From a virus, in IMG/VR virus record IMGVR_UViG_3300027759_000072, positions 16,415 through 80,414 of that record: DNA of 64,000 bases. One strand, given 5' to 3'. Made by a program: the position numbers and the translations under genes. Shown here one piece after another: positions 56,027-64,000 of this stretch; within the stretch, counting starts at the first letter, position 1; the number at the start of each line of letters is the position of its first letter. Below the pieces are notes generated by a model. That model was not told the DNA's origin. It did no database searches and worked only from the letters and a program-made list of their open reading frames with translations.

Positions 56027-56055
56027 TTGACTTTATAACATAAGGTGTGTATAAT
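56027..56055 (+). promoter_or_regulatory. Strong sigma70-type early promoter
   Basis: TTGACT (56027-56032), exactly 17 nt, TATAAT (56050-56055): 5/6 and 6/6 matches. The ATG at 56063 is only 7 nt after the -10, which predicts a leaderless or nearly leaderless transcript. Confidence 0.85.
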
Positions 56056-56062
56056 AAACAAC

Positions 56063-57250
56063 ATGACTACTGTTGATAATTTACTATTACAAATTGTAAA
56101 CCATTCTTCTCCTACTATAGAAGAAATACTTACAACTAGAGATGCTAGGGTATTGCGTAGCTTATCTACGGCGGTTACTACACATACGTTCATTACTGAA
56201 AATCAATCAAAGCTGTTATTAAAAATTATTATTGAACACATTGAAAAAATTAGAATTTTAGTTGAAGATGTTGAGGATATAATAAAAACTCCCATCTGGT
56301 CTAAATCTTTTAGGGTTGTTGAAAGCTATAAAAAATTGTATATTTCTCAATCAAGTGAAAACTTGCACATCAATATAGAATTTACGTTTTCTAGTAGTTT
56401 GCGTAATACTATCAGCGCACTACAAAAACAAATTTCCGGTCTAGTCCAGGTACATCCCGGAAAATTATATCAAGCCGACCTTACTGAAAATAATATTGTA
56501 GAATTAATCTCTGCACTAGAACCCCTTGGTTTTGAAATTGAAGAAAAATTAGAAAATTATTACAAAATCATAAAATCTTGGTCAGAAAATGAAATTAAGG
56601 ATCAGTATAAAATTGATACTATCATCTATCCCAACTTCCAAAAAGTGATTACCGCGGACCTTGGTATTGAAACAGCAATTGATACAAACATCATAAATGA
56701 CCGAAGTATTAGGTACCAATATTTCACCGAAAAATCACCAAAAAAACCAGAAAATTTGACCGAAATATTAGCTAACAGAACTAGCACAAGATGCTGGGCG
56801 AATCGAAAAGAAATTAATTTAATAGACATATTGGAAAGTTTAGAAAAATTAAAAAGATTTCCACTAATGGTTATCTTTGATATTGCTGATCCTGAAAAAT
56901 GCTTGGAAGAATTAAAAAATTTAAACCAATCATTGGAAAAATTTGGAATTTTTGAAAGTATTGGAATTTATTTTAGATTGAGTAATATTGGTACTGGAAA
57001 AGATTTTAATCAGCTAATTGCAACGAAATCTTACAACTGCCAACTGGACAGTGACACAAAAATTATTGGTGTTGCTAATGGAAAAATTCCAAAATTTCTC
57101 CTAAAAACACCATGGCGTCCTATGAGTGTTATTTCAATAGGTAAAATTTTACAAAATAATAAAACATCAACATATACTAATAAATGTGACCTTATTATCA
57201 ATTGGACTGACAACGAACCTATAATCGAAACGAGGGCGACATGGGAGTAA
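56063..57250 (+). CDS. Unrecognised conserved-position protein between uvsY and uvsW, 395 aa
   Basis: Start set at ATG 56063 (MTTVDNLLLQIVNHSSPTIE); the track-style start at 56045 lies inside the -10 element. The N-terminal ~140 residues are helical and charged. The C-terminal half reads TSTRCWANRKEINLIDILES, PLMVIFDIADPEKCLEELKN, IYFRLSNIGTGKDFNQLIAT, LLKTPWRPMSVISIGK: an alpha/beta arrangement that might be an inactive nucleotide-binding or nuclease-like fold, but no catalytic motif is clear. Its end overlaps uvsW by 10 nt, so it is coupled to the helicase. Probably a replication or recombination factor; the family is not known to me. Confidence 0.65.
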   Translation: MTTVDNLLLQIVNHSSPTIEEILTTRDARVLRSLSTAVTTHTFITENQSKLLLKIIIEHIEKIRILVEDVEDIIKTPIWSKSFRVVESYKKLYISQSSENLHINIEFTFSSSLRNTISALQKQISGLVQVHPGKLYQADLTENNIVELISALEPLGFEIEEKLENYYKIIKSWSENEIKDQYKIDTIIYPNFQKVITADLGIETAIDTNIINDRSIRYQYFTEKSPKKPENLTEILANRTSTRCWANRKEINLIDILESLEKLKRFPLMVIFDIADPEKCLEELKNLNQSLEKFGIFESIGIYFRLSNIGTGKDFNQLIATKSYNCQLDSDTKIIGVANGKIPKFLLKTPWRPMSVISIGKILQNNKTSTYTNKCDLIINWTDNEPIIETRATWE

Positions 57251-59418: not shown

Positions 59419-59925
59419 ATGCAAATTTTAACATTAGAGAATCAAACATTCTCATTAAACAATTTACCCGACGAGGTAGATGAAAACACGAGATTTGCTG
59501 TATTAGATAACAGTGATCCAAAAGAACCCGATTTCTTTTTTATGCCTTTAATTTTCCTAGAAAGTTTTAATGCGCCAGCAATGGTATTACGTATTGGTGA
59601 AGACGAAGTAACTATGCCTATTGATTGGTGCATTGCAGTTGGTGATAGTTCAAGTGCTAACGATATTGAAATATTACCGTTAACTAGTTTAAACGATAGA
59701 GGATTCGAAGCATTAATTTTTAATCCGTTAAGCTCGTTCAGAGTGGAGTTTAAGAAGATTGAAATTGTAAATTTTTATAACGATGTTAAATGGTATTTTC
59801 CAAAGATGAAAAACGGACAACTATTAGCAGTTCCTACTAGGTTCGGAGACAAACCAAATTGTGCTTATTTTGTCAAAGAAATTAGCCGACAAAGTGAAAT
59901 TATACAACTGGATAAAATATTATAA
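59419..59925 (+). CDS. Conserved hypothetical protein, 168 aa
   Basis: Start chosen at ATG 59419 (MQILTLENQTFSLNN), which has GGAAAG 5 nt upstream; an earlier ATG at 59407 lies inside the previous gene. Blocks FFFMPLIFLESFNAPAMVLR, MPIDWCIAVGD, PLTSLNDRGFEALIFNP, VKWYFPKMKNGQLLAVPTRF, CAYFVKEISR recall a conserved unassigned protein of aquatic T4-like phages. Beta-rich; no catalytic residues identified. Confidence 0.65.
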   Translation: MQILTLENQTFSLNNLPDEVDENTRFAVLDNSDPKEPDFFFMPLIFLESFNAPAMVLRIGEDEVTMPIDWCIAVGDSSSANDIEILPLTSLNDRGFEALIFNPLSSFRVEFKKIEIVNFYNDVKWYFPKMKNGQLLAVPTRFGDKPNCAYFVKEISRQSEIIQLDKIL

Positions 59926-59926
59926 T

Positions 59927-60502
59927 ATGCAAAACGAAATTCTTATTATTGACGATGCCCTCTCAACATCTCTGCAAGAAGAACTAGAAAGTATTTTTTT
60001 AGGACCGTCTATTCCGTGGAGTTATGTTGCAGATCTTAAAGAATATGCTCCAGAAGATGTTGCTCCCGCGTCAGAAGCAGTTGACTATAAACAATTTGTA
60101 CATCTTGTATACCATTCTCCGGATAATATAGTTAAACCCTCTTTTCCGTTATTTGTATCACTATTATCTGCAATACCTGTAGAGATTGAAGGACTACTCC
60201 GTATCAAGGTTAATATGACTACAATAGATCCAACTCGCCCAAAAAATTCGTATGGGCCGGCACATGTCGATTTTACTCCCCCAGTGAAGAATTTAATTAC
60301 CTGCATTTACTATTTTAATGACAGTGACGGTGATACTGTTATCTTTACTCAAGTTGGCAACCGACTAATTGAAAGGCAACGAATTAGTCCAAAGCGAGGA
60401 AGACTAGTAGTGTTTGACGGCAATTTACATCATTCAGGCAATTGCCCAACTACCCCACACCCTAGAGTTGTTGCCAATATTAATTTTATACCAAGGAAGT
60501 GA
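59927..60502 (+). CDS. 2OG-Fe(II) oxygenase, 191 aa
   Basis: Start at ATG 59927 (MQNEILIIDDALSTSLQEEL), 1 nt after the previous stop. Fe ligands H-x-D in PAHVDFTPP (~113-115), ITCIYYFNDSDGDTVIF, distal His in LHHSGN (~168-170), 2OG-Arg in PRVVANINF (~179). It shares domain order and the SDGDTVIF strand with the oxygenase at 32668, so the two are paralogues serving different operons. Likely a hydroxylase; substrate unknown. Confidence 0.85.
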   Translation: MQNEILIIDDALSTSLQEELESIFLGPSIPWSYVADLKEYAPEDVAPASEAVDYKQFVHLVYHSPDNIVKPSFPLFVSLLSAIPVEIEGLLRIKVNMTTIDPTRPKNSYGPAHVDFTPPVKNLITCIYYFNDSDGDTVIFTQVGNRLIERQRISPKRGRLVVFDGNLHHSGNCPTTPHPRVVANINFIPRK

Positions 60503-60503
60503 T

Positions 60504-60794
60504 ATGGGTAATCTTAAACCGGGCATACCACTTATACATGAACGAGTAGGCAATGTGGTTTACACTCGAGAATTTGGAGCAGATCCTAGCACTAGGGAAG
60601 TAGCAGGATGGGACTACGATAAAGAAGATCCAAACTTTGATCCACGTACTAAAGACGGAAGACCGTTACATGATCACATAATGGAAGATCAGATGTGGGG
60701 CGAAATTCGGAGAGAAGCACGTACCAATGTGACTTTACAAAAAGCATTAGATCGTGCTATAATGATATACAAATTAAGTAAGGATAAAGTATGA
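60504..60794 (+). CDS. Conserved small protein, 96 aa
   Basis: Start at ATG 60504 (MGNLKPGIPLIHERVGNVVY), with AAGGAAG upstream; the longer frame from 60414 overlaps the oxygenase. Contains YTREFGADPSTREVAGWDYD, DGRPLHDHIMEDQMWGEIRR and a C-terminal helix ending YKLSKDKV. I recall close relatives in cyanophage-type genomes with no known role. Overlaps the next start by 4 nt (ATGA). Confidence 0.7.
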   Translation: MGNLKPGIPLIHERVGNVVYTREFGADPSTREVAGWDYDKEDPNFDPRTKDGRPLHDHIMEDQMWGEIRREARTNVTLQKALDRAIMIYKLSKDKV

Positions 60795-61444
60795 CAATTA
60801 AGGTAGCATATTTCCAACCGATCGTTGTAGCTATAGACGACATCCCACCAATAATGTTTAGTAAAATTTATAATTTGGCAGAAGCATTACACGGACATCC
60901 AGAGTTAGCAACTATAAATGATGCTGGCAATCCATTGATTAGTGTACGGGGAGGACAACAAATACAGGTATATCCTACTAATTTAGATCTTGATGTATCC
61001 TGGCTTATAGAGTATCTTGAAAAAGTATGCTTAGGATACATGGAGTTAATTACTGCGCAATCAAATACAGAAGAATTAAAGTATTGTAAACCTGTAATTA
61101 CTAGTATATGGACTATTCGCCAATGGCAAGATCAATATCAAGAGATGCATAGTCATCCAGGCGGCAACATCAGTGGTAATATGTATATTGATGTTCCAGA
61201 CTTTGATCCAGAAGGAAATCCAAGCGATGGACAAGTATTATTTAGGCTCCCAAATAGTAAAGATGTTACAAAATTTGTAATGACTGACACTTGGAAATAT
61301 AGTGCTAAATCAGGAACTTTAATTGTTTTTCCAAGCACGTTGCCACATACAGTCTATCCGTGGAAAGGTACTGGATATCGAACTGTTATGGCATTCGATG
61401 CTATTCTTAGACCTAAAGATGAGCTATTACCATCCAATGAGTGA
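60791..61444 (+). CDS. Putative 2OG-Fe(II) oxygenase (TIGR02466-like), 217 aa
   Basis: The core EMHSHPGGNISGNMYIDVP carries the first metal His residues (~119-121), followed by DGQVLFRLPN, SGTLIVFPSTLPHTVYPW (distal His ~186) and TGYRTVMAFD (2OG-binding Arg ~197). This H-x-H...G.L..FP..L.H.V.P...R pattern is that of a small phage/marine oxygenase family in which His replaces the usual Asp. Coupled by overlap to the genes on both sides. Confidence 0.75.
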   Translation: MTIKVAYFQPIVVAIDDIPPIMFSKIYNLAEALHGHPELATINDAGNPLISVRGGQQIQVYPTNLDLDVSWLIEYLEKVCLGYMELITAQSNTEELKYCKPVITSIWTIRQWQDQYQEMHSHPGGNISGNMYIDVPDFDPEGNPSDGQVLFRLPNSKDVTKFVMTDTWKYSAKSGTLIVFPSTLPHTVYPWKGTGYRTVMAFDAILRPKDELLPSNE

Positions 61445-61916
61445 AAAAATTGAACTAAAAGAAAAGATTCAAGCGGTTGACGAAAACGTCCGTGAGTTAT
61501 GGGATGCTATGGATGCCGATCAACAAAAAAGTCTTAAGCAAGAATTCTTTATCCTTAACAGATACATTAGTAGTGCCAAGGGTGAAAAACGAGAAGTGCA
61601 AGAGCACTATGTTCTTGCAGTTAACGAATACTTTAATAAACATTGGAATGAATTGCAAAAGCATCCTAAGTTGTTATGGTTGTTATTGTGTATGTGTAGT
61701 TACAATGGACAAAAGAAAGTATTTCACGAATGGATTGGCGCTAAAAAGAAAACTGGCAGTAATAGCAAAAAAACAAAGTTCCTTGCAGAAATTTATCCTA
61801 ATAAAAAAATGGACGAGATTGAATTGCTTTCTGCAATGGTAACTGATAAAGAAATAAAAGAACTTGCACGTAAGCACGGCATGGACGAAGCTACCATTGC
61901 TAAGAAATTAAAATGA
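61437..61916 (+). CDS. Uncharacterised helical protein, 159 aa
   Basis: Start at ATG 61437 (MSEKIELKEKIQAVDENVRE) overlapping the previous gene; the longer frame from 61323 is antisupported by that gene. Helical and charged; VNEYFNKHWNELQKHPKLLW then LLLCMCS, KVFHEWIGAKKK, and a C-terminal EIYPNKKMDEIELLSAMVTD, KEIKELARKHGMDEATIAKK. The C-terminus is faintly like clamp-loader small subunit gp62 (Y....DEI.LL...T..E+K), which is a guess only. Overlaps the next gene by 4 nt. Confidence 0.55.
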   Translation: MSEKIELKEKIQAVDENVRELWDAMDADQQKSLKQEFFILNRYISSAKGEKREVQEHYVLAVNEYFNKHWNELQKHPKLLWLLLCMCSYNGQKKVFHEWIGAKKKTGSNSKKTKFLAEIYPNKKMDEIELLSAMVTDKEIKELARKHGMDEATIAKKLK

Positions 61917-62605
61917 TAGCATTAGTTAGCCAACCGTTTATTTGTCAGTATTGTAAGAAAGGGTTTATACAGGAAAAAACTCTTATTGTACATGTTTGCG
62001 AACAAAAACGCAGGGCGTTGGCTAAAACAGAACGCCATGTAGTATTAGGCTATGACACTTATAATAAATTTTATAAAATTAGTCAAAATGCTAAAGGTGA
62101 TAAAACGTATGAAGAGTTTGCTAGAAGTCCTTATTATAATGCTTTTGTTAAGTTTGGCAGCTTTGTTAGCAATGTCAATCCTCTCTACCCAGATAAATTC
62201 ATTGACTATGTAGTAAAGTCAGGTGTTAAACTAGATCATTGGTGTCGTGAAGAGTTATATGAAACTTATGTGTTGCATTTAATTAAAACTGAACCTGTAG
62301 AAGTTGCATTAGAGCGTAGCATTGTTCACATGCAAAACTGGGGTGAAGCTAATAATGCGTTGTGGAATCATTACTTCTTATATGTTAGTTTAAGTCGTGC
62401 AACATATGATATTAAGGATGGTAAAATTAGTCCGTGGCTAATATTAAATTCGGCTAACGGAAAAGATATGCTAAAAAAGATGGGCGATGATCAATTATCA
62501 GCAATAAGTAATATTATTGATTTACAATTTTGGTTGAGTAAATTTAGAAAATTACCTGCGGATGTTGAATTAGTAAAACAAGTGGTTAAAGAGAGTACTA
62601 TATAA
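61913..62605 (+). CDS. Zinc-finger-containing protein of unknown function, 230 aa
   Basis: N-terminal C-x2-C...H-x-C finger (FICQYCKKGFIQEKTLIVHV, then C), like a C2H2/C2HC nucleic-acid-binding finger. Then KFYKISQNAKGDKTYEEFAR, SPYYNAFVKFGSFVSNVNPL, HMQNWGEANNALWNHYFLYV and a helical C-terminus. The stop overlaps the start of the polymerase-like gene (TAATG), and its start overlaps the gene upstream, so three genes are translationally coupled. A DNA-binding partner of the downstream protein is a reasonable guess; no family assigned. Confidence 0.6.
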   Translation: MIALVSQPFICQYCKKGFIQEKTLIVHVCEQKRRALAKTERHVVLGYDTYNKFYKISQNAKGDKTYEEFARSPYYNAFVKFGSFVSNVNPLYPDKFIDYVVKSGVKLDHWCREELYETYVLHLIKTEPVEVALERSIVHMQNWGEANNALWNHYFLYVSLSRATYDIKDGKISPWLILNSANGKDMLKKMGDDQLSAISNIIDLQFWLSKFRKLPADVELVKQVVKESTI

Positions 62606-63183
62606 TGCCAGATATTGATATTGATTTTGCAGATAGAACGTTAGCACTTGAAAAATTTAAGCACGTTGTCGCATCTATTGATGATAATGGAACTTTTAAA
62701 AAACATAATACTGGAATATATTGTACGTCTATGCCGTACAATCCAATTACTGGACTAAGTACAATAGATTACAAACAAGCAGAAGATAGAGGTTACTTTA
62801 AAATAGATTTCTTAAACGTGGGAGTCTATGAAGGTATGAAAGACAGAAAACATTTACTACAACTAATGGAGACTGAACCACTATGGGATTTACTGTTACA
62901 GGACGATTTCGTGAACTTGCTGTTCCATGTGAATGGGCATGGGTCTATTCTAAGGCAAATGGCACCAAAGTCTATAGAAGAATTGGCCGCAGTACTAGCG
63001 ATGATAAGACCAGCCAAACGTTATCTGATTGGGAAAGAATGGACTACGGTGATGACAGAAGTGTGGACGAAACCCGAAAATGACGAGTACTACTTTAAAA
63101 AAGCACATGCCATTGCTTATGCACATGTAGTAGTGGTGCAGATGAACTTAATTTGCGAAGGTATCAGTTACGGTTACAGTTAA
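62605..63183 (+). CDS. Miniature C-family (DnaE/PolC-like) DNA polymerase motif protein, 192 aa
   Basis: Carries the ordered landmarks of bacterial Pol III alpha: PDIDIDFADR at residues 2-11 (first catalytic pair, Asp5/Asp7; E. coli PDFDVDF), KKHNTGIY (~32-39; DnaE R..H..G), a GYFKIDFLNVGV stretch with Asp68 (third catalytic Asp; DnaE KFDFLGL), KSIEELAAVLAMIRPAKRYL (~122-141; DnaE EDI.A..AL.RPG), and FKKAHAIAYAHVVVVQMNL (~163-181; DnaE F.KSHA.AYA). It is about one sixth of DnaE length: PHP, thumb, beta-binding and OB domains are missing. Full catalytic ability is doubtful. Last gene of a coupled operon; its stop overlaps the convergent gene's stop. Confidence 0.7.
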   Translation: MPDIDIDFADRTLALEKFKHVVASIDDNGTFKKHNTGIYCTSMPYNPITGLSTIDYKQAEDRGYFKIDFLNVGVYEGMKDRKHLLQLMETEPLWDLLLQDDFVNLLFHVNGHGSILRQMAPKSIEELAAVLAMIRPAKRYLIGKEWTTVMTEVWTKPENDEYYFKKAHAIAYAHVVVVQMNLICEGISYGYS

Positions 63184-63554
63184 CGAGTTCTACGTACTAG
63201 CTGTACTGATTTACGTTTTACACGTTTTAGGGTTAAATTCATTAGGTTAACAACCGGCCCTAAAATAACACGCACATCTTTACTGTTAAATGTTTTAACA
63301 GCGTAGTGGAATGGTTGAATTTGTTCTCTACAAAAAATATTAATTGGAAATTGACGGTTTGATTCCCACCACCAAGTTTCGCCTACTTCTAAAAATATTG
63401 TGCGTTCTTCAGGAGTGCGTATAGCATTGAGATCATAGAAACTAGTTACAAACTGGTCTTGATTGATTATAATGCCCACGTATTCGTTTTCACCGTAATT
63501 TAACACGCTGATAAAGGGTAGATTTTGTTCTATGTTGTCTCTTAGTTTTGCCAT
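63180..63554 (-). CDS. Conserved hypothetical protein, 124 aa
   Basis: Start set at ATG 63554 (MAKLRDNIEQNLPFISVLNY); an upstream ATG at 63611 lies within the divergent structural gene. Blocks YVGIIINQDQFVTSFYDLNA, FLEVGETWWWESNRQFPINI, VRVILGPVVNLMNLTLKR recall a widely shared unassigned protein of aquatic T4-like phages (the ETWWWESNR motif is distinctive). Basic C-terminus. Its start codon lies inside the plus-strand late octamer of the next gene. Confidence 0.72.
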   Translation of the reverse strand: MAKLRDNIEQNLPFISVLNYGENEYVGIIINQDQFVTSFYDLNAIRTPEERTIFLEVGETWWWESNRQFPINIFCREQIQPFHYAVKTFNSKDVRVILGPVVNLMNLTLKRVKRKSVQLVRRTR

Positions 63555-63559
63555 AAATA
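63552..63559 (+). promoter_or_regulatory. Candidate late promoter
   Basis: CATAAATA, 21 nt before the ATG at 63581, with AAAGG between. The same bases contain the reverse-complement start codon of the minus-strand gene. Confidence 0.6.
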
Positions 63560-63580
63560 TAGTATTAAAGGTCCTGCCAG

Positions 63581-64000
63581 ATGCAAAAAATTTCAAGTTA
63601 TTTATACCCAAATAGGATTGAACTATTAGCCGATCTGGCTGGCTTTACTACGGAGTATACAAACGTGTATCAGAGAAATCTAAAAATATATAATGGTATA
63701 GATAATGTCGTTGAGTTTGACATTAAGAATGCCGATCAAAAGCGTATTGATTTATCAATACTATCTAATATAGAATTAAATGTTATGGACGCCAGTGGCA
63801 ATGCATTGCCTAATAGTCCATATCCTGTTACACCTATTCCTAGTATGAAAGGACTTGCTAAAGTTATTATACCGCAAGATGATCTTGCTGATCTAACAGA
63901 GCAATTCCTAGCATATAGTGTTACTGCTCTTAAAGACGGCAACGATACTATTCTGTATGCTGACAGCAGATTTGGTGCAGTTGGTAAAATTGAACTTGTT
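63581..64000 (+). CDS. Virion structural protein, N-terminal part (truncated by window edge)
   Basis: Open reading frame with no stop to the right edge (140 codons). Begins MQKISSYLYPNRIELLADLA, then GFTTEYTNVYQRNLKIYNGI and FDIKNADQKRIDLSILSNIE, an N-terminal type I associate with structural (tail/baseplate) proteins of T4-like cyanophages. AAAGG 10 nt before the ATG and a late octamer upstream support the start. Full length and C-terminal domains are outside the window. Confidence 0.75.
   Translation, partial: MQKISSYLYPNRIELLADLAGFTTEYTNVYQRNLKIYNGIDNVVEFDIKNADQKRIDLSILSNIELNVMDASGNALPNSPYPVTPIPSMKGLAKVIIPQDDLADLTEQFLAYSVTALKDGNDTILYADSRFGAVGKIELV

Follow-up and report, generated by a model that had tools for sequence, protein, structure and literature searches.

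The 192-aa protein encoded at 62605-63183 of the window, by which we mean the whole 64,000-nt stretch of DNA analysed (positions 16,415-80,414 of record IMGVR_UViG_3300027759_000072, itself a fragment of about 80 kb), is probably the C-terminal subunit of a two-subunit, minimal version of the Pol III alpha subunit (DnaE), working as a nucleotidyltransferase beside a family B replicase. It will be referred to as the C-half, and the product of the complementary gene found in its relatives as the N-half. We infer the physical assembly of the two halves, their catalysis and their biological role, and assembly is supported indirectly by the fact that the two halves are homologous to adjoining parts of DnaE. 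The C-half has an invariant active site, is under purifying selection, occurs jointly with its partner and a family B polymerase, and is encoded in a conserved operon.

The idea of a split minimal Pol III has already been published, on computational grounds, in 2021. According to Iyer et al., jumbo phages of group 2.2 possess, in addition to a family B polymerase, a “phage-specific minimal version” of the alpha subunit of Pol III that is divided between two proteins, an N-terminal one that binds NTP and a C-terminal one that binds Mg and template, whose genes lie far apart; assembly and cooperation of the two were proposed, and the pair was read as a model of ancestral Pol III (PMC7824862). 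Among open-licence papers, no experimental study of the split enzyme was found. The system reported here shares with that of group 2.2 the C-half family, the split point and (in relatives) the N-half, together with T4-like replication genes around the C-half and, again in relatives, a family B polymerase in the same genomes. It differs in that the window is a fragment from an uncultured lineage, in whose record the partner was not seen, and the closest named relatives of its C-half, from phages Atu_ph07 and Phosso, are about 52% identical. What is new is this abundant, divergent uncultured lineage, the exact cut site, the audit of motifs kept and lost and the co-occurrence test, as well as an occurrence in a 141-kb phage and a near-invariant operon with the Zn-finger and phrog_11758 genes.

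The genes and motifs concerned are the following, in window coordinates:

61323..61916, + strand: phrog_11758 protein
61913..62605, + strand: helical protein with a Zn-finger (CxxC...HxC), phrog_11058, translationally coupled to the C-half
62605..63183, + strand: C-half (phrog_11778, 192 aa), metal-binding palm and residual fingers of the putative split minimal Pol III alpha
62608..62628, + strand: PDIDIDF, residues 2-8, with the first two catalytic carboxylates D5 and D7 (E. coli DnaE D401 and D403)
62704..62715, + strand: HNTG, residues 34-37, equivalent of the conserved DnaE motif KHAxG (E. coli ~510-514)
62800..62814, + strand: KIDFL, residues 66-70, with the third catalytic carboxylate D68 (E. 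coli D555) and K66 (E. coli K553)
63004..63018, + strand: IRPAK, residues 134-138, equivalent of the fingers motif (L/F)(Y/F)RPGP
63094..63123, + strand: FKKAHAIAYA, residues 164-173, equivalent of the fingers motif F.KSHAAAYA
63180..63611, - strand: convergent gene with a phage-family match, phrog_11637

Conservation, content and fold of the C-half

At TAATG the start codon (ATG) of the C-half ORF and the stop codon of the Zn-finger gene before it overlap. Its best phage-family match is phrog_11778, annotated “DNA polymerase” (E=1.9e-66), followed by phrog_405, the full-length phage DnaE (E=4.6e-7). The profile search against C-family models suggested in the original prediction thus bore out the assignment through these two families, while the general models taken alone were marginal (Pfam DNA_pol3_finger, 14.6 bits with a cut-off of 22; NCBIfam TIGR00594, E=0.0038). 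Relatives are encoded on at least 557 viral-contig stretches and in 90 of the 50,697 phage records over which counts were made. No cellular members of the family were found, the five genome contigs that match weakly (~24-31% identical) being consistent with ordinary DnaE, and a plasmid search gave zero matches. In many GenBank records (Cronobacter phage GAP32, Pectobacterium phage CBB, Erwinia SNUABM phages) the protein is labelled “putative membrane protein” or hypothetical; the former label is probably a propagated misannotation, the homology being to the soluble Pol III core.

The catalytic motifs that had been recognized in this ORF from its sequence, in the order typical of a C-family polymerase, are all present as listed, and an alignment of 109 homologues, with identities down to ~40%, indicates how strictly they are kept. 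In the first part of the protein D3, D5, D7, H34, G37, K66 and D68 are identical in 109/109 sequences, so that PDIDIDF contains a third invariant aspartate besides the two catalytic ones; in the second part the same is true of R135, P136, K138, F164, K165 and H168. The median dN/dS of 0.094 (329 pairs) corresponds to strong purifying selection. Taken together, the invariant motifs and a dN/dS of ~0.09 exclude chance resemblance and decay. The reading of the gene as a functionless, decaying remnant of a captured host dnaE, which the large deletions relative to DnaE and the hypothetical or membrane protein labels might favour, is therefore scarcely credible, being also at odds with the number of metagenomic relatives and the conserved operon position.

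To define what of DnaE is retained, the family profile of the C-half was aligned to six full-length C-family polymerases by profile-profile comparison. E. coli DnaE residues 392-781 cover the C-half end to end and in order (prob 88.8, E=2.5e-6), and the two proteins have in common, in the same order, the three catalytic Asp and the KHxxG, K.DFL, RPxx and F.KxHA motifs. The C-half is far shorter than DnaE (192 aa vs ~1160 aa), and two internal blocks are missing. The distance from D7 to D68 is 61 residues in the C-half vs 152 in E. coli DnaE, and between the RP of RPAK and the H of FKKAHA there are 33 vs 121 residues. According to these alignments the thumb is gone, with about 90 residues missing, HNTG coming directly after the deletion, and the central fingers are gone as well, including the QEQ and LRRAMGKK region; the names thumb and central fingers for the missing blocks follow the DnaE structures. 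QEQ and LRRAMGKK-type patterns were found in 0/109 C-halves. The same patterns occur in 5/6 and 3/6 of the full-length comparators, respectively, and for this reason absence of the LRRAMGKK type is the weaker criterion. Since DnaE 392-781 fully accounts for the 192 aa, there is no PHP, clamp-binding, OB or tau-binding domain in the C-half, and the little finger that DnaE possesses is likewise lacking. Moreover, the chain starts at PDIDIDF and so is devoid of the Gly-Ser (GRGS) palm element, the loop that precedes this strand in DnaE.

The fold assignment agrees with these comparisons. An AlphaFold2 model of the C-half (pLDDT 91.3, pTM 0.80) searched with Foldseek against the PDB retrieved Pol III alpha chains at ranks 1-11 (top probability 1.00, query TM ~0.5), and the next match, with a probability of 0.05, was not credible. 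Pol III alpha being the only credible fold match, the search for a competing fold, by profiles or by structure, produced none.

The N-half and its co-occurrence with the C-half

The GRGS element absent from the C-half is supplied by phrog_11127, a family of 161-181 aa proteins. One member had been noted in the description of phage CBB as a truncated alpha subunit of 172 aa, CBB_328 (PMC5259590). This protein carries the sequence GLGRGSSVSSY, belongs to phrog_11127 and passes the Pfam DNA_pol3_alpha cut-off; its gene sits four genes before the clamp loader. The G.GRGS motif is present in 83/83 N-half sequences, the profile of the freshwater N-halves aligns to DnaE 285-392 (hhalign prob 95.4, E=1.7e-8), and a model of one N-half (AlphaFold, pLDDT 90.2) found only Pol III alpha matches in the PDB. 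The N-half ends at about residue 393 of E. coli DnaE and the C-half starts at about residue 399, with no overlap, so that the palm is divided cleanly, after the Gly-Ser helix and before the DxD strand. Since the part of the palm that binds the dNTP, the Gly-Ser half, comes from a second gene, we regard the C-half as one of the subunits of a split enzyme and not as a mini-polymerase complete in itself. The initial description of a “radically shrunken polymerase palm” thus holds insofar as the protein is a piece of C-family palm and fingers, and fails in that the palm is incomplete, its Gly-Ser half being encoded by a second, distant gene.

Neither N-half nor family B polymerase turned up in the ~80-kb record from which the window comes, as can be explained by the record being a fragment, and the pairing proposed here consequently rests on relatives. 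Of the records in a first panel, 11 exceed 200 kb, nine of them being named phages and two viral contigs, and C-half, N-half and family B polymerase were present together in 11/11 of these. By contrast, N-half and family B polymerase were seen in 0/9 first-panel records below 150 kb; for the N-half this is expected, because the partner gene lies far away. Two further near-complete records of 383 and 364 kb (G011 and G012) have all three genes, a 180-kb record (G013) has both halves, and a 212-kb fragment (G015) has the N-half alone. In G001, a near relative whose C-half is 84% identical to that of the window, the N-half lies ~184 kb away. The separation amounts to ~180 kb in G001, G011 and G012, the nearest relatives, and ranges from 11 to 224 kb overall. 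The two halves are therefore far apart and not co-transcribed, and this counts against the split-enzyme reading.

Two independent counts over the phage records, one for each half and with 87 records carrying the N-half, agree genus by genus. The sole organism with a C-half match and no N-half match at the count threshold was Alishewanella phage Slickus01, in which a profile search then located the N-half (E=5.3e-15); a family B polymerase is also present. The genome of Slickus01 (OQ508957.1) is complete and circular, with 141,644 bp and the halves at L269:6875-7486 and L270:1486-1998, meaning that possession of the split enzyme does not require a genome larger than 200 kb. To our knowledge, an occurrence in a phage below jumbo size was not part of the 2021 paper of Iyer et al., which treated jumbo phages. 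A small ORF that separates the Zn-finger gene from the C-half in Slickus01 was considered as the N-half and discarded, since it has no family match and the N-half sits elsewhere. Across 15 genomes the pairwise divergences of the two halves are correlated (Mantel r=0.89, 0/5000 permutations), which is compatible with a shared complex, yet would be expected for any two vertically inherited genes.

Genomic neighbourhood

Genes in the window follow the order terminase, SSB (gp32 type), UvsX, UvsY, helicase, several others, phrog_11758, phrog_11058, C-half and the convergent gene. The order around the C-half is similar in named phages, where primase and DnaB-type helicase genes follow. This gene content is in agreement with the T4-like phage that had been recognized from the sequence, and the placement of the C-half behind a Zn-finger gene in a coupled operon was likewise confirmed, as phrog_11058 precedes the C-half, with the TAATG overlap in the window, in 105/106 loci. 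The Zn motif is kept in 118/118 relatives of phrog_11058, which is a candidate third subunit or DNA-binding partner of the C-half. By-eye resemblance had hinted at a divergent T4 gp59 helicase loader, and this identity was rejected (hhalign prob 0.1), the gp59 Pfam model giving nothing above its cut-off in these phages. The phrog_11758 protein, whose gene is located upstream of the C-half in all loci that extend far enough (103/103), also failed as gp59 (prob 1.0 on a scale of 100); the real start of this gene is probably near 61437 (MSEKIELKEK). On the other side, a gene of comparable length in convergent orientation comes after the C-half in 10/10 annotated phages inspected, the comparison being of size and orientation.

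Other genes of the region deserve mention. A 401-aa protein with no PHROG match is encoded between UvsY and the helicase (56045-57250), at the place occupied in RaK2-like phages by a DnaQ-type exonuclease (RNase_T in CBB). Further along, at 59861-60502 and 60791-61444, are two adjoining 2OG-Fe(II) oxygenase-like genes; phrog_274 (“DNA endonuclease V”) matches both of them, and this label consequently looks doubtful.

Proposed function and alternative readings

In the mechanism considered here, the C-half would most likely bind the phrog_11127 protein as its N-terminal subunit, so that both rebuild one Pol-beta-type nucleotidyltransferase palm, with the three Mg-binding Asp coming from the C-half and the GxGRGS loop of the partner holding the dNTP triphosphate. 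The remaining fingers motifs (RPAK and FKKAHA) would hold template and nucleotide. Without thumb and central fingers, the enzyme is expected to be weakly processive, adding one or a few nucleotides, and could act in repair or in synthesis primed by recombination, alongside the UvsX/UvsY/UvsW/SSB machinery, genome replication being left to the family B polymerase.

Given that both halves together lack PHP, thumb and central fingers, DNA polymerase activity is uncertain, and judging from these losses the assembled enzyme may prove poor or unconventional as a polymerase. The stronger proposal, that this is the smallest C-family polymerase known, a thumbless enzyme made of ~170 and ~190 aa chains that serves a large class of T4-like phages as a dedicated second DNA polymerase next to the family B replicase, with the Zn-finger protein as a third subunit that binds DNA, is tentative and rather doubtful. 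The halves could instead assemble into a nucleotidyltransferase that performs no template-directed extension, such as a terminal transferase or a protein- or end-nucleotidylating enzyme. Loss of the thumb and central fingers in all homologues, combined with an invariant metal site and Gly-Ser loop, would suit such an activity, as would the full-size family B replicase that these phages already possess. Still, RP.K and FKKxHA are kept in 109/109 sequences, suggesting that contacts with nucleotide and template continue to matter, and the neighbourhood is one of recombination and replication genes, with no indication of a non-DNA substrate; this alternative is accordingly regarded as unlikely.

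A further option, raised in the original prediction, is a protein that mimics host Pol III as a decoy or regulator; it would imitate the alpha subunit and interfere with the replisome of the host. Resemblance to host DnaE and a size far too small for a replicase acting alone are in line with that option, which is nevertheless quite improbable. A decoy has no need of metal-binding residues that are invariant in 109/109 homologues, and the parts of DnaE that bind clamp, tau and epsilon (C-terminal region and PHP) are absent. In addition, another gene, encoding just the part of the palm that the C-half lacks, has been retained along with it in phages whose hosts range from Alphaproteobacteria to Enterobacteria. 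The two-subunit nucleotidyltransferase described above is the preferred reading. If active when assembled, the pair would serve as a pared-down model for the core of the bacterial replicative polymerase, revealing what can be dispensed with, and would raise the question of why phages that already own a full family B replicase retain another catalytic module, of bacterial type. Because the pair is small, has sharp boundaries and is carried by isolated phages that grow on laboratory strains of E. coli and P. aeruginosa, for example Escherichia phage 121Q and the PAO1 phage Cassandra, the proposal is directly testable.

C-family polymerases encoded in more than one ORF are also known from split or intron-interrupted dnaE genes of phages and plasmids, for example gp30/HNH/gp32 of Thomasclavelia phage TR-TP2. 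Pieces of that type are adjacent and large, with a homing endonuclease gene between them, whereas the halves described here are minimal, unlinked and conserved as two genes. Pol III alpha genes seemingly interrupted by HNH homing-endonuclease ORFs were encountered at L151:4047-8672 (TR-TP2) and in the plasmid matches H265 and H266, and HNH interruption looks like a separate route to split C-family polymerases.
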